Assembly (NCBI GenBank): GCA_020831965.1
Contig: JAFIFP010000002.1
Location: 1 to 64,000 of the forward strand
Length of the DNA: 64,000 nt
Reading direction: 5' to 3'
DNA from: Idiomarina sp.
GTDB lineage: Bacteria > Pseudomonadota > Gammaproteobacteria > Enterobacterales > Alteromonadaceae
Every line of letters starts with the position of its first letter. Within the stretch, counting starts at the first letter, position 1. The position numbers and the translations under genes are program-made. Positions 4,674-48,133 of this stretch are shown here, piece after piece. Below the pieces are notes generated by a model. The model had not been told where the DNA came from and made no database searches. It worked only from the letters and a program-made list of their open reading frames with translations.

Positions 4674-6026
4674 ATGAAGCGTTTTGCAGTATGGTTTGTG
4701 TTGATTATCGCAGTCACTTTCGGCCCCCGCGCGCATGCGAGCCTTGAAATCGTTATCACTGAAGGCATCGACAGCGCCCGACCTATCGCTATTGTTCCAT
4801 TCAAATGGAGTGGACAAGGTAGCGCTCCTTATAATTTCACCGAAGTGGTGGCCGCCGACTTATTGCGAAGTGGTCGCTTTAATCCAATCCCAACGCGTGA
4901 CCTGCCTAGTCGTCCGTCAGTCGATACTGACATTACTGACTTCTCAGTCTGGGCTCGCCTAGGTGTTGAGGCGATGCTTGTCGGTTCTGTGGATGAGTTT
5001 GCCCCTGGTCGTTATGAAGTTACCTACCAGCTCATTGATCCCCTGCGTGGACAAATTACGAGCGGTCTCTCTCAATACTTAGATGACGAAGGACTGGTGA
5101 GTGAGCAAGAACATATTCTGGAAACGCGCACCTCAGTGGTGCTAGATACTCAGTTTCGCCAGTATGCGCACCGCATTTCTGACGTTGTCTATGAAGCGCT
5201 TACCGGTGAACGGGGGGCTTTCTTAACCCGGATTGCCTATGTCTTCGTCGACCCAAACGCAGAGTTACCTTATCAGTTGATGGTAAGTGATTACGACGGA
5301 GAGAATGAGCGTGTTTTGTTGCGCTCTCCGCAGCCATTAATGTCGCCTTCGTGGTCGCCCGACGGCTCAAAGTTAGCCTATGTCAGCTTTGAAAATCAGC
5401 GGGCAGAGATTTTCATTCAAGATATTTACACCACACAACGTGAGCGCTTAACGTCGTTCCCTGGCATTAATGGTTCTCCTGCTTGGTCGCCTGATGGTAA
5501 GAAGATGGCGATGGTATTGTCCAAAAATGGGGCACCAGATATTTATGTGATGGACCTTGAAACCCGTCAAGTCAGACAAATTACGGATCATTGGCGTATT
5601 GATACTGAACCGAGCTGGACACCAGACGGTAAAGAGTTAGTGTTCACTTCTGAACGGGGCGGTGCGGCACAAATCTATCGCGTCGAATTGGACTCGGGAC
5701 GAATTCGTCGAACCACTTTTAGTGGTGACTCAAATTTAGGGGGCGTCGTGACCCCAGATGGGCGAGGCTTGGTGATTGTTAGCCGAGACAGCGGCCGTTA
5801 TCACATTGCACGACAGGACTATCCTTCTGGCAATTTTCAGGTGTTAACTCAGACAACCTTGGATGAGTCACCGAGTATTGCACCGAATGGTAGTATGATT
5901 ATCTACAGTACGACATATCAGAATCGTCAGGTTCTGGCTTTGGTGTCAATGGATGGACGCTTCCAAGCTAGGCTGCCTTCTCGCGAAGGTGAGGTCAAGG
6001 CTCCGGCTTGGTCGCCATTTCTCTGA
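4674..6026 (+). CDS. tolB: Periplasmic TolB beta-propeller
   Basis: About 450 residues with a cleavable signal peptide ending in RAHA at about residue 23. After an N-terminal alpha/beta domain, the second half carries repeated propeller motifs: [43 protein letters not shown] and [11 protein letters not shown]. TolB binds Pal and the TolA C-terminal domain in the periplasm and is needed for outer-membrane constriction at division. I use ATG 4674 because GGAG lies five bases upstream; the GTG at 4668 overlaps that ribosome site. It sits between tolA and pal in the standard order. Confidence 0.96.
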
Positions 6027-6092
6027 TGATGAAAACATGCTATGTTTTTCGGCAATTTTATAGGTTAACTCGGTTATGAAGGAACCCAAATA

Positions 6093-6638
6093 ATGGAACT
6101 CAAGAAAGTAGTCAAAGCAGTCGCCGTTGCCCTCCCAATGATAGTGTTGGCAGCTTGTAGCTCAACTTCAGACGATATGACAACAGGTGACGAAAGCAGA
6201 GCCGGTGGCACTGGCGCAAGTCAGACTGATGGCCGTCGTGGCGTTGAAACAGGTGCGGCGGACCGTCGTTTGACTCCTCAGGAAGAACGCCAGGAGCGTT
6301 TCGCTGAATTACGTCGTGATCACGTGATCTACTTCGACTTCGACGATGCGTCAATTCGTGGTGAATTTGCTGAGCTGCTCTCTGCCCATGGCGATTATCT
6401 TGTGCGGAATCCGAACGTGTCGGTCATTATTGAAGGACACACGGACGAGCGCGGTACGCCAGAGTACAACATTGCCCTTGGCGAACGCCGTGCAAAAGCA
6501 GTGGTCGATTATTTACTAAACTTAGGTGTATCATCTTCACAGATGACTACAGTGTCGTATGGTGAAGAGAAGCCACTGGTACGGCAAAGTAATGAGCGCG
6601 CATGGTCTCAAAATCGTCGTGCGGTTCTAGTATACTAA
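6093..6638 (+). CDS. pal: Peptidoglycan-associated lipoprotein Pal
   Basis: 181 residues with a lipoprotein signal peptide (lipobox LAAC, lipidated Cys22), a linker rich in Gly, Thr and Asp, and a C-terminal OmpA-like domain that binds diaminopimelate of peptidoglycan. IYFDFDDASI and EGHTDERGTPEYNIALGERR are the diagnostic motifs. It anchors the outer membrane to the cell wall and is recycled by TolB. The 66-base gap after tolB could hold a secondary promoter. Identification is secure. Confidence 0.96.
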   Translation: MELKKVVKAVAVALPMIVLAACSSTSDDMTTGDESRAGGTGASQTDGRRGVETGAADRRLTPQEERQERFAELRRDHVIYFDFDDASIRGEFAELLSAHGDYLVRNPNVSVIIEGHTDERGTPEYNIALGERRAKAVVDYLLNLGVSSSQMTTVSYGEEKPLVRQSNERAWSQNRRAVLVY

Positions 6639-44438: not shown

Positions 44439-45362
44439 TCAATCATTGGTATTAGATTGCAGTCGCAAGAGCCTCACTGAGGCGGGCGTTTGCCGGATTG
44501 ACGCGGCTTGCTCACGGCTATACTCAGCTTCTTCAAAGCGATCTAGTCGCTCATATAGTGCGGCAAGTTGCTCTAACAGGTTCGCACTGCGATAGCCGTC
44601 GGATAACCAAGCTCGAACGTAGAGTGCGCGTTGAAGCCGATACTCTGCGGCCTCATAGTCGCCTCGCTGTTGATGGAACTGGCCCATTTCTTCGAGGGTG
44701 GCGGCAATACCCGGGCGAAAACTTAATTCTCGGTATTGATCTAATGCGTCTCGCAATAATTGCCCAATGAGTTGTGGCTCTTCAGACATTTGAGCGTGCA
44801 GTCGCATGACCCGCGCTTGAAAGAGTGGTGTACCGTGAATGCGTTCTGCGTGGGAAATATAATGGTGGTCCCGAGGTTCATTGCGAATACCAATGTCAGC
44901 AAGAATTAGCAGTGCAGCATGCTCAGTCGGTCGAGTTGCTGTCGGTGGCACGATGTGTTCGATCAGCGCTGCCGCGTCGTCGAGCGAATTTTGCTCTAAT
45001 GCTATTCGTGCGAGTACTATCTGCGCGCGCTCCGTAGCTTCACGATCGCGTTGAAGTTCTGCCAGGGCCTGTGCTGAGCTCGCATGTTCCGCGGCGATAG
45101 GCAGCCGACCAATCAGAAAAGATGTTTCCGCAAGGTTAAGGTGGCTATTTAGCATGCCTTCGCGGTGATCGAGACTACGATATTGGGCGAGTGCTCGCGT
45201 AAAGTAATAAGCCGCATCCACATAATCGCCGCGTTGATGAGAAGTTACGCCACGTTCAAGCAATTGTTGCCCCTGTTGGTGGGCATAAGGGGCGGGTTCT
45301 GGCGTACTACCGCAGCCGGCGAGTAAGAGTATTGGAATGGCGAAGAGAAACCACTTAGTCAT
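44439..45362 (-). CDS. TPR-repeat lipoprotein of the MCE locus
   Basis: 307 residues. Lipoprotein signal with lipobox LAGC (Cys17), so membrane-anchored in the periplasm; the +2 Gly suggests the outer membrane. The rest is helical with tetratricopeptide patterns, for example GDYVDAAYYFTRALAQYRSL, GDYEAAEYRLQRALYVRAWL and LYERLDRFEEAEYSREQAA. It overlaps the MCE gene by eight bases and is the last gene of that operon, so it is probably the outer-membrane-side partner of the lipid transport system, in the position where PqiC or MlaA-like lipoproteins act elsewhere. That role is inference. Confidence 0.8.
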   Translation of the reverse strand: MTKWFLFAIPILLLAGCGSTPEPAPYAHQQGQQLLERGVTSHQRGDYVDAAYYFTRALAQYRSLDHREGMLNSHLNLAETSFLIGRLPIAAEHASSAQALAELQRDREATERAQIVLARIALEQNSLDDAAALIEHIVPPTATRPTEHAALLILADIGIRNEPRDHHYISHAERIHGTPLFQARVMRLHAQMSEEPQLIGQLLRDALDQYRELSFRPGIAATLEEMGQFHQQRGDYEAAEYRLQRALYVRAWLSDGYRSANLLEQLAALYERLDRFEEAEYSREQAASIRQTPASVRLLRLQSNTND

Positions 45363-46371
45363 GAGGAATTACCTCAATACGTTGCTGCGGTGCAGTGCGT
45401 CCGCGGGAGAACCACCACGAGTCGGAAACGCGATTCATCAGGAAGTCGGTTTGCTCCATAAGTACATTGATACGATGGATCATATCGGGTAATTGCTGCA
45501 CTTCGGGTTGCAGACCGACTAAGGTTGCATTTACATACTCGAGCAAGGTCAGTGTTTCGCTCATTAACGCAGGCAAGTGTGGAATCGTTTTATTGGTTTC
45601 TGCGAGGAGCGGCTCCAATGCTTCCAATAGAGGTTCAAGTTGCCCAAGCCGCGCTTCCGCAGTTAACAATGTTTGCTCAACATGGTCGAGTAAGCGAGTT
45701 GCTTGCTGCTGAAATTCGGGGTCAAACAGTACATGGCCAATCAACCCTTCGCCAGCGGCGACTTTTTGAATGATGGCTTGGAGGTCCGTGGTGATTGCCG
45801 CGGTATTGCCGATTAAGGTCTCGACGTCTCCTGGCTTTACCGCTAACAGTAGTTCAGAAAAATGATTGAGGGTGACATTCACAGTGTCCACCATGGGTGC
45901 AACTTGGGCAAGCAACTCATCAATAGAGATAGGCTCTTCGACGACGAGTGACGTTCCATCTTCCAGTGTGGGCAGATTCGGATTGCCGGCTGACAGGTCA
46001 ATGGTGGTGCGGCCGAGTAGGGACAGCTTAATGGATGCGCGTGAATTGGTGCGCAGCATGCTGGTGTAACGGTCATACACACGCACCGTGATCAGGACGA
46101 GATGTTCGGGGGTGATTTCGACACTGTCCACGCGACCGACTTCAATCCCCGAGATTCTAACGGGCGTATCACGAGACACTCCTTCGGCATTCTGCACATA
46201 GAGTTGCAGCTGAATATAGTCATCGAATAAGTGCAAAGAACGGCTATTAATCACGAAAACGGCGAAGAAAATAACCGCTGCTAGCAGCACAAAAAGTCCC
46301 ACAACTTTTTCTTGCGCGGAGTAACTGAGTCGATGGATGTAATGGGGGCGCTTGCCCTGCTGCGACGCCAT
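45355..46371 (-). CDS. MCE-domain protein (MlaD-like lipid-binding subunit)
   Basis: 338 residues. A short cytoplasmic tail, one membrane helix (about 25-43, VGLFVLLAAVIFFAVFVI), and an MCE domain (about 50-130) with GVSRDTPVRISGIEVGRVDSV and SIKLSLLGRTTIDLSAG. A long helical region with repeated Leu/Glu follows. MCE proteins form hexameric rings that carry phospholipid between membranes. I start at ATG 46371 (GAGGA five bases upstream) rather than ATG 46383, which sits directly on a purine tract. It follows the ABC subunit and overlaps the lipoprotein gene. Confidence 0.9.
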   Translation of the reverse strand: MASQQGKRPHYIHRLSYSAQEKVVGLFVLLAAVIFFAVFVINSRSLHLFDDYIQLQLYVQNAEGVSRDTPVRISGIEVGRVDSVEITPEHLVLITVRVYDRYTSMLRTNSRASIKLSLLGRTTIDLSAGNPNLPTLEDGTSLVVEEPISIDELLAQVAPMVDTVNVTLNHFSELLLAVKPGDVETLIGNTAAITTDLQAIIQKVAAGEGLIGHVLFDPEFQQQATRLLDHVEQTLLTAEARLGQLEPLLEALEPLLAETNKTIPHLPALMSETLTLLEYVNATLVGLQPEVQQLPDMIHRINVLMEQTDFLMNRVSDSWWFSRGRTAPQQRIEVIPHD

Positions 46372-46392
46372 AGTATTCCTCATTCCTGTTCG

Positions 46393-47163
46393 CTATTCCG
46401 AATGCTGATTTAAGTAACGACGAACTTCATCAATGGAGTCCTCGTATAGCTGCTGTCCACTGCGTTGATAACTGCCATTACACAGGGCGTTCCAATCTGG
46501 AAACTCTAATGTGGTTTGTGTGCCAACAAAGAAAATCTTCGTCGCGAACTTCCGTACAAAACTCAAATTGCTAGTTGCCATAACAATAGCACCCGTTTTC
46601 ACCCATTCGCTGAAGAAGTTATTGAGCTGGGAATATTCATGGGGGTCGAGTGCATGCCACGGGTCGTCCATCAGAAGTACTTCTGGGTCTAACATGACGG
46701 CACGCGCGATAGCGAGCTGAATCCGGTGGACTGGTTCGAGAAAGGCCGGTAGCACTTCGGTCGGACCGTCAAAACCAAGGGCTGTTAGAATTTCCTGCGC
46801 TCTTTCAATCGCTTCGTCTCGCTGCATGCGGCCATGATAAAGGGTCGGGAATACTGTGTTATTGATACCACTGAGTACTGACAGTAATGGGGCTTCGCGG
46901 GAAATATATGCCAGTTTGATGCGCAGCTCTTGCCAGTCTTGCTCTGGAATTTTTTCAATTGAATGGTGAAAGAGCTCGAGTTCACCTTGGTGAATGGGAT
47001 GAATCCCTGCCAGCGTGCGCAGATACTCATCGAGGATCCGGCGGTCCGGGCCAATAAAGCAGCAAATATCACCATGCTCCAATGCAAGATTAATCGGAGT
47101 TCTGAGCGCTTGGTCCGAGAACTCTGGGCATAGCCCTTTGGCGTAAATCGGGAACGTTTTCAT
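46393..47163 (-). CDS. MlaF-like ABC subunit with degenerate nucleotide-binding motifs
   Basis: 256 residues in the position and general sequence of an MlaF-type ATPase, but the motifs needed for ATP use are altered: Walker A reads GPDRRILDE instead of GxxGxGK(S/T); the Q-loop glutamine is replaced (YISREAPLL); the LSGGQ signature reads LEPVHRI; Walker B ends MDDP instead of DEP; and the switch histidine is Asn (MATSNLS). The fold still looks intact (AIARAVMLDPEVLLMDDP, HALDP). It is probably a pseudo-ATPase holding the permease. Four-base overlap with the permease gene shows it is translated as part of the operon. Confidence 0.85.
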   Translation of the reverse strand: MKTFPIYAKGLCPEFSDQALRTPINLALEHGDICCFIGPDRRILDEYLRTLAGIHPIHQGELELFHHSIEKIPEQDWQELRIKLAYISREAPLLSVLSGINNTVFPTLYHGRMQRDEAIERAQEILTALGFDGPTEVLPAFLEPVHRIQLAIARAVMLDPEVLLMDDPWHALDPHEYSQLNNFFSEWVKTGAIVMATSNLSFVRKFATKIFFVGTQTTLEFPDWNALCNGSYQRSGQQLYEDSIDEVRRYLNQHSE

Positions 47164-47969
47164 ATTAATGATGGCTGCAGTAGCAGAATAAAGAGTGCAT
47201 TTAAGACGAAGATAATGCTCAGACTATTCACTATCGCTTGCTGGGTTTGCTGTGGCAGCTCGGTGCGCGATTGCCCAACACGAAGGGCGTGATAACTTGC
47301 GATGGCACCAATCAATATTCCGAAGACCAGATTTTTCACGACAAACACAATGAGATCATAAGGATGAATAGATGTCGCAATCTCTGGCAAATAGCTTAGG
47401 TAGCCAGCGTGCTCGGTATAACTAAGCATAATCACGCCACTTATAATGGCGATGACGGCGAAGTAAATAGCGAGAATGGCCTGCGCAAGCCCAGTCCCGA
47501 TGACGCGTGGCGTAACCAGAAAATGATTGAGGTTAATGCCTAACATTTCCAAGCCTTCAAGCTCTCGATTGAGTTTCATATTGCCCAAGTCAACGGTGAT
47601 TGCGGAGCCACTGCGACCGATAAGTAAGATAGCTGTCAACAACGTGCTCAACTCGAAAATAATGACGCGAACTAAAATATCGATGACTTCGGCACGCTCG
47701 CCAATCATCTGAATGGTCAGAATGACTTGTGTTGTGATTGCCAGCCCTGACGCAAGGGCGAGCAAGGTGACTACGGGTAAGGCGTCGATGCCGGAAAAGA
47801 TAAGCTGACCAAGCAGCGTACGATAGGTGGCTTGGTTGAAGCGGAAATGCCCTTGTTGTCGCGGATTCAAAGCGCGCAAGGTGAATAACAGCAGCTCAAA
47901 GAGGTAGGCGGGCAAACGCAATATTTGCCTTCCGGTAAAGCCAAATGCGTCGAACAAGCGCGTTAGCAT
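47160..47969 (-). CDS. MlaE-like permease of an MCE transport system
   Basis: 269 residues with about five or six membrane helices. GRSGSAITVDLGNMKLNRE followed by LEGLEMLGINLNHFLVTPRVIG is the MlaE (YrbE) signature, including the segment that contacts the ATPase coupling site. The permease dimer sits in the inner membrane under the MCE ring. It is the first gene of a four-gene set: permease, degenerate ABC subunit, MCE protein, TPR lipoprotein. MlaB and MlaC homologues are not in the window. Confidence 0.92.
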   Translation of the reverse strand: MLTRLFDAFGFTGRQILRLPAYLFELLLFTLRALNPRQQGHFRFNQATYRTLLGQLIFSGIDALPVVTLLALASGLAITTQVILTIQMIGERAEVIDILVRVIIFELSTLLTAILLIGRSGSAITVDLGNMKLNRELEGLEMLGINLNHFLVTPRVIGTGLAQAILAIYFAVIAIISGVIMLSYTEHAGYLSYLPEIATSIHPYDLIVFVVKNLVFGILIGAIASYHALRVGQSRTELPQQTQQAIVNSLSIIFVLNALFILLLQPSLI

Positions 47970-48101: not shown

Positions 48102-48133
48102 AAAAAAAGAGCCGACTTGGGGGAAGCCGGCTC
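48102..48133 (-). terminator. Rho-independent terminator of cnoX
   Basis: Minus strand GAGCCGGCTT-CCCCC-AAGTCGGCTC, a 10-bp stem with one mismatch, followed by seven Ts. It lies about 30 bases after the cnoX stop. Confidence 0.88.

Follow-up and report, generated by a model that had tools for sequence, protein, structure and literature searches.

An ABC subunit without the motifs of an ATP site poses the question of why it is kept in an operon for MCE transport. Such a subunit is encoded in the window, the whole 64,000-nucleotide stretch of an Idiomarina sp. contig (JAFIFP010000002.1, assembly GCA_020831965.1) analysed here, where it stands between an MlaE-family permease and an MCE protein. 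The gene could be decaying, its product could be an ATPase in unfamiliar form or a sensor of nucleotides, another ATPase could take its place, or the fold could be retained for a structural role. To our knowledge, the role of ATP in MCE systems, be it in permease opening, loading or direction, is not settled. If hydrolysis has truly been given up at this locus, an MlaE-MCE machine has evolved without it, and the role of ATP could be tested directly by comparison with the canonical Mla system that the cell also has. Both copies of the transporter's ABC motor would then be dead by descent, yet maintained by selection.

The operon and its products

The operon consists of four genes on the minus strand, preceded by a candidate terminator:

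48109..48133, minus strand: terminator-like hairpin with a T run, in the gap that separates the permease gene from the thioredoxin-like gene upstream of it
47160..47969, minus strand: MlaE-family permease, 269 aa, operon gene 1
46393..47163, minus strand: pseudo-ABC open reading frame, 256 aa, ATP-site motifs lost
45355..46383, minus strand: gene of the MCE (MlaD-domain) protein, 342 aa, one MCE domain
44439..45362, minus strand: TPR lipoprotein, 307 aa (Pfam TPR_12, 60.4 bits)

The ATG of the pseudo-ABC gene and the stop codon of the permease gene overlap in the sequence ATGA (47160-47163), and the permease matches Pfam MlaE (PF02405) over residues 54-262 with 163.8 bits against a cut-off of 22.5. 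Both observations are in keeping with the coupled translation with an intact MlaE-like permease that the initial annotation had described. When read on the plus strand, 46393-47163 is full of stops. The permease falls under the cut-off of NCBIfam TIGR00056 (132.4 against 212.2 bits), and its MlaE domain begins at residue 54 of 269, which leaves too little space upstream for a fused STAS domain. The MCE gene starts 9 bases past the pseudo-ABC gene and overlaps the lipoprotein gene by 8 bases. At the other end, the hairpin would separate the operon from the upstream thioredoxin-like gene; it is a consensus match only, with 4 such sites found and 3.8 expected in shuffles.

The single domain of the MCE protein lies at residues 57-133 (Pfam MlaD, PF02470, 50.2 bits against a cut-off of 25.1). 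It is preceded by an HYIH segment and then a transmembrane helix, modelled weakly as a helix at residues 21-53, and a helical extension of ~190 aa is predicted by a low-confidence model (pLDDT 56). The lipoprotein carries the lipobox LLAGC with Gly at position +2, as judged by eye. Under the sorting rule for lipoproteins, Gly at +2 directs the protein to the outer membrane. The modelled extension and the +2 Gly together suggest a putative bridge to the outer membrane. In Pfam the lipoprotein of the window matches TPR families and has no match to PF03886 (PqiC-like). The same holds for the lipoproteins of two related loci, L041 and L044, while that of a third (L046) has only a sub-cut-off TPR match.

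Lost ATP-site motifs

The motifs of the window protein were read from an alignment with 19 intact MCE-linked ATPases and lie as follows:

47029..47052, minus strand: former Walker A, residues 38-45 GPDRRILD, with Lys replaced by Leu44 and Ser/Thr by Asp45
46897..46899, minus strand: former Q-loop Gln, Arg89 in the alignment
46834..46890, minus strand: retained post-Q segment, residues 92-110 (PLLSVLSGINNTVFPTLYH), with conservation near the canonical level
46723..46740, minus strand: former ABC signature, residues 142-147 LEPVHR, with LSGGM replaced by LEPVH (142-146)
46663..46668, minus strand: Walker B, DD at residues 166-167 against canonical DE, with the catalytic Glu replaced by Asp167
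46570..46572, minus strand: former switch His, Ser198 in the alignment

The alignment confirms four losses claimed by the initial annotation, namely a Walker A without GK(S/T), a Q loop without Gln, LEPVHR at the signature and DD in Walker B. The fifth, a switch His changed to Asn, needs correction: the residue aligned with this His, which is present in 19/19 of the intact MCE-linked ATPases, is Ser198, and Asn199 is the next residue. In an ABC dimer, each site of ATP hydrolysis is made up of Walker A from one subunit and the signature from its partner. Since the window protein is without both, no complete site would be formed either in its homodimer or in a mixed dimer with MlaF. Near the C terminus, residues 231-242 (46438-46473) form a 12-residue insertion that is absent from the six other aligned members.

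Fold and descent of the pseudo-ABC

The window protein scores 28.9 bits with Pfam ABC_tran, just over the cut-off of 25. Its AlphaFold2 model, made with 7 sequences, has an ABC fold (pLDDT 89.6, pTM 0.88). Among the matches listed by Foldseek for this model, 50/50 are ABC subunits by description, and MlaF (6xgz, 6xbd) and the mycobacterial Mce1 complex (8fed) are found at TM 0.81-0.84. By sequence, the nearest family is not MlaF, with ArtP, FtsE and others scoring higher. In the tree, the pseudo-ABC is not part of the group formed by the 19 MCE ATPases (98/95), and its own place is unsure on account of long branches. The label "MlaF-like" given to the protein earlier therefore rests on gene position and partner, and holds in that sense. 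The tail following the anchor measures 6-25 residues in 41 rows against 28-36 in four MlaF, and overlaps in length with the tails of STAS-type ATPases.

Distribution of the operon

The best orthologues of the window operon belong to Aliidiomarina (L041-L043), with permeases 71-79% identical. A scan of genome contigs with the single permease detected 6 loci, and the same gene set is found in distant gammaproteobacterial assemblies (L044-L046), of which L045 breaks off short of its fourth gene. When 369 genomes of the class were searched with a profile of 7 permeases, 9 of them, the own genome included, reached at least 235 bits, followed by a gap down to 156; with the same profile only the own genome rose above 121 bits in a 295-genome sample of the order. 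A profile of 14 permeases found 2/398 genomes in a phylum sample, again counting the own genome, the other (G686) being outside the class. Four further orders gave 8/20, 6/19, 14/54 and 3/24 genomes with this profile, counts that are not frequencies because the orders were chosen for holding a member, and the samples overlap in part.

Forty permease rows, two of them identical, make up one side of a branch that separates them from 9 other MlaE rows (99/96). This clade is present in all 200 bootstrap trees and also in a quick tree of 96 rows, and the tool warns of long branches. Of the 15 stretches scanned, 12 have all four genes arranged in this order. The remaining three are L045, whose contig stops once the MCE gene has been passed; L103, an outlier without a TPR match; and L099, the remnant in genome G008. 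L103 (G266, 149 bits) is a distant relative on a long branch outside the clade and was excluded from the clade counts, and L112, which duplicates L046, was left out.

Two of these loci deserve a description of their own. In L103 (contig C29 of G266), a distant MlaE-ABC-MCE locus, the ABC gene keeps Walker A and is without SGG and the Q-loop Gln; it is possibly a second or deeper case. In L099, from the congener G008, a permease remnant (5960-6313) has conserved genes on either side, and the 11-kb stretch around it contains no match to the ABC, MCE or TPR genes.

Motif loss across the clade

Within the clade, near-uniform loss is that of the signature and the Q loop, and Walker A, the catalytic Glu and the switch His are lost unevenly. 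SGG is intact in 0/39 readable members, for which one change on the permease tree suffices, and the Q-loop Gln is kept in 1/40 (L045; two changes). The DE of Walker B is intact in 8/39 (four changes), the switch His is kept in 19/39 (five changes) and the full Walker A in 9/39 (six changes); in these fewest-change counts, loss and gain are indistinguishable. L118, cut by a contig end, and L105, broken in two, were left unscored where unreadable, giving 38 fully readable rows. Of these, 18, the window included, have none of the five motifs intact, and 7 have Walker A, DE and His together. The ABC gene of L093/L105 (G391) is split over two frames, through either assembly error or decay.

The controls behave uniformly. 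Among 89 other MlaE loci, 86 have a co-oriented ABC gene within the flanking sequence covered and 3 have none, and 86/86 of these genes match the patterns for Walker A, Q loop, SGG and DE, scored by regular expressions on the open reading frame (four patterns, the switch His being outside that set). A single pseudogene or a sequencing error, two of the ways in which the initial annotation allowed that it might be wrong, both fail for the signature and the Q loop, since numerous independent assemblies contain orthologues that have lost them. The conserved loss for which it proposed to compare orthologues is found almost throughout the clade for these two motifs and unevenly for Walker A, Glu and His.

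The 7/38 rows in which Walker A, DE and His are all kept suggest that ATP binding may persist in part of the clade. The pseudo-ABC might then act as a nucleotide sensor, in which ATP is bound without being hydrolysed and gates the conduit. Such a role would be in keeping with these 7 rows and with the retention of the Walker A Lys in 21/37 rows. It is nonetheless unlikely, given the 18 rows in which all five motifs have been lost and the nature of the substitutions at this Lys: Leu in 10 rows (four Aliidiomarina and six lying with family f150) and Ala in L046 (species group of G296, f150).

Selection and constraint

Within groups, 18 of 37 pairs have dS of at most 1.5, and in these the dN/dS of the pseudo-ABC ranges from 0.16 to 0.58, always below 1. 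Within the genus of the window, dS of this gene is at or close to saturation, and the evidence for purifying selection comes from other relatives. Identity is lower for the pseudo-ABC than for canonical MlaF in 13/13 genome pairs (for example 0.55 against 0.76 for G000/G014) and lower for the clade permease than for canonical MlaE in 11/13. This faster evolution of both proteins could also reflect weak constraint acting on the system as a whole.

A gene decaying under relaxed constraint, on its way to being lost, would likewise evolve faster than MlaF, and the frame break of L105 and the reduction of the G008 operon to a permease fragment would be its visible end points. Against this stand the dN/dS below 1 in every one of the measurable pairs, the signature loss common to members from at least five orders, and residues that are near-invariant specifically in the clade (Leu138 in 37/37 rows; Leu94, Ser95 and Tyr109 in 36/37; Arg81 and Phe221 in 35/37). 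Decay is thus very improbable. The conserved loss, the kept operon and the purifying selection where it is measurable are best read as a selected non-ATPase role, as had been argued from the window alone.

The distribution of constraint along the protein was compared with that in canonical ATPases for 37 clade rows, 5 rows having been dropped as outlier, duplicate, cut or broken. Conservation changes by -2.02 bits in the 21 ATP-site columns, by -0.45 bits in the 206 remaining columns and by -0.11 bits in the 19 columns of the post-Q segment. In a Mann-Whitney test, which takes columns as independent and leaves related sequences unweighted, the ATP site differs from the rest with p = 1e-9 and the post-Q segment only with p = 0.04. 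In ABC subunits, the segment after the Q loop adjoins the coupling helix of the permease, and residues 92-110 of the pseudo-ABC would accordingly face the permease. A coupling helix joins MlaE to MlaF in the Mla complex, as stated in the available part of the source (PMC7790496).

The same columns bear on whether the pseudo-ABC could still be an active ATPase, divergent in sequence and working with unusual residues. Its fold is predicted to be intact, and polar residues (E/Q/R) often stand directly past the former signature. However, the window protein is without the Lys, Ser/Thr, Gln, SGG, Glu and His of an ATP site, and the former Walker A, signature and D-loop columns (2.05, 2.12 and 1.97 bits) do not stand out in conservation from an average column in the clade (2.10 bits). 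An active site rebuilt from such residues is hardly to be expected.

Canonical Mla, STAS and HYIH

The canonical mlaF that the initial annotation proposed to look for exists: the genome of the window holds a canonical mla locus with an intact MlaF, and canonical MlaF keeps SGG in the 14 genomes compared. The MlaE-family permease of the pseudo-ABC operon could therefore be powered by the MlaF of the same genome, which would replace the pseudo-ABC or pair with it. A further MlaE is found in 25/25 clade genomes tested (of 37 with handles) and none in the outlier G266, and precedent exists in mycobacterial MceG, described in the available part of its source as one ATPase for several Mce systems (PMC9947336). 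Yet MlaE-family genes are near-universal, with 55/58 relatives carrying them, which leaves their co-occurrence with little weight, and the translational overlap of permease and pseudo-ABC favours a dedicated partner. The sites of a mixed dimer, moreover, would each be without either Walker A or signature. Supply of energy by MlaF is thus quite unlikely, and the partnership with another ATPase, one of the roles offered at the outset, is disfavoured for the window.

A search for STAS_2 (E up to 0.01) in 26 genomes placed the matches elsewhere in the genome and none beside the operon, a result that a diverged STAS gene could escape; the only near match, in G274, belongs to an adjacent canonical mla locus. 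The HYIH segment precedes the membrane helix of the MCE protein in 38/41 loci (L104 has HYSH, L118 is cut and the outlier L103 has none) and is found in 0/88 control loci, whose flanks may not all reach the MCE gene. It is a possible docking site for the pseudo-ABC.

Proposed mechanism

The gene coupling, the retained fold, the retained post-Q segment and the lack of any STAS gene found suggest that the pseudo-ABC is a structural part of the complex. On balance, we lean towards a conserved pseudo-ATPase, whose ABC fold is kept as a cytoplasmic clamp or scaffold of an ATP-independent MCE lipid conduit. For the clade as a whole, the corresponding reading is that an ABC lipid transporter became an ATP-independent conduit from the inner to the outer membrane, with the nucleotide-binding domain kept as a pseudo-enzyme locked to the permease and perhaps to HYIH. 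Following a single early signature loss, ATP binding would have been given up to different degrees from lineage to lineage. To this broader reading we give slightly less than an even chance.

As regards the architecture of the complex, the scaffold role, the order of events, the energy source and lipid as the substrate, we infer the following. A dimer of the MlaE-type permease would lie in the inner membrane, and its coupling helices would be held by a dimer of the pseudo-ABC. The MCE protein would follow as a hexameric ring extended into a long helical needle, and the TPR lipoprotein would be located at the outer membrane. The signature and the Q loop would have been lost early in the clade, after which ATP could no longer drive the closure of the dimer. 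The other three motifs, Walker A, Glu and His, would then have decayed separately in several lineages, and completely in the branch of Aliidiomarina. The conduit would pass lipid downhill, or by a drive other than ATP.

Comparison with known systems

The system is classed with the MCE transport systems as a variant, and not as an MlaF ATPase. Published systems are compared below as they are described in the available parts of the sources cited. Mpc of Brucella (MpcE-F-D-A) is similar in having four genes, for an MlaE-type permease, an ABC subunit, an MCE protein and an outer-membrane lipoprotein, and its MCE protein is almost twice as long as MlaD and bears a helical extension; particular to Mpc are a well-conserved ABC transporter, a STAS-fused permease and a PqiC-like lipoprotein (PMC12436622). 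In the window operon, by contrast, the ATPase motifs are lost, STAS was not found and the lipoprotein is of the TPR type. The length and predicted helices of its MCE protein fit an Mpc-like reach to the outer membrane, the confidence of the model being low.

Mla (MlaFEDB) shares the MlaE permease, the ABC fold and the MCE domain, and is set apart by the STAS protein MlaB, by a C-terminal handshake and by an MlaF that has kept its motifs (PMC7790496, PMC7367683). Compared with MlaFEDB, the window operon has lost the motifs, has a tail shorter than those of four MlaF, and has no STAS gene that could be found.

PqiABC and LetAB have several MCE domains per chain, and PqiA and LetA are not of the MlaE type and are not known to have an ABC subunit. 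They resemble the proposed system as MCE conduits with an inner-membrane subunit that has no ATPase (PMC12436622). SbmA is not an MCE system, and the window system differs from it by keeping a nucleotide-binding domain as a pseudo-enzyme. SbmA itself is not known to have a nucleotide-binding domain. It is a proton-driven secondary transporter with a fold related to the transmembrane domains of ABC transporters (PMC13316013).

In the MlaEFD system of Veillonella, a long MCE protein (long MlaD) is proposed to span the periplasm without MlaA or MlaC (PMC10665443). This MlaD ends in a C-terminal beta-barrel (PMC10665443), whereas the MCE protein of the window has a predicted helical end and is accompanied by a separate TPR lipoprotein. 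The available part of that report describes no degenerate ATPase in the Veillonella system (PMC10665443). Searches of the open-access literature on degenerate ATPases, Mla/MCE systems and MCE diversity returned no such system among the matches listed, and a search for MlaE with MCE, tetratricopeptide and lipoprotein returned no match.

Mpc-like loci in the genus

A second MlaE, in an open frame of 372-413 aa, is present in 10/16 other genomes of the window's genus. In L165 (G009) and L166 (G007), this long permease is followed by an intact ATPase, an MCE protein and a lipoprotein, the layout described as Mpc in Brucella in the available part of the source (PMC12436622). The lipoprotein of L165, a locus of a congener, matches PF03886. 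The N-terminal extension of the long permease of L165 is probably a STAS domain; it has no Pfam STAS match, and the long permeases of G274, G1099 and G1047 have weak, sub-cut-off STAS_2 matches. Over the 17 genomes of the genus, there are three pseudo-ABC operons and one remnant, ten genomes with a permease of 372-413 aa and three with neither.

These counts would agree with mutual exclusion of the pseudo-ABC operon and the Mpc-like system inside the genus, which is not claimed here, as permeases of the long type occur alongside the operon in G274, G1099 and G1047. In G274 (L095, contig C11), the permease of the pseudo-ABC operon lies ~4.5 kb from the canonical mla permease.
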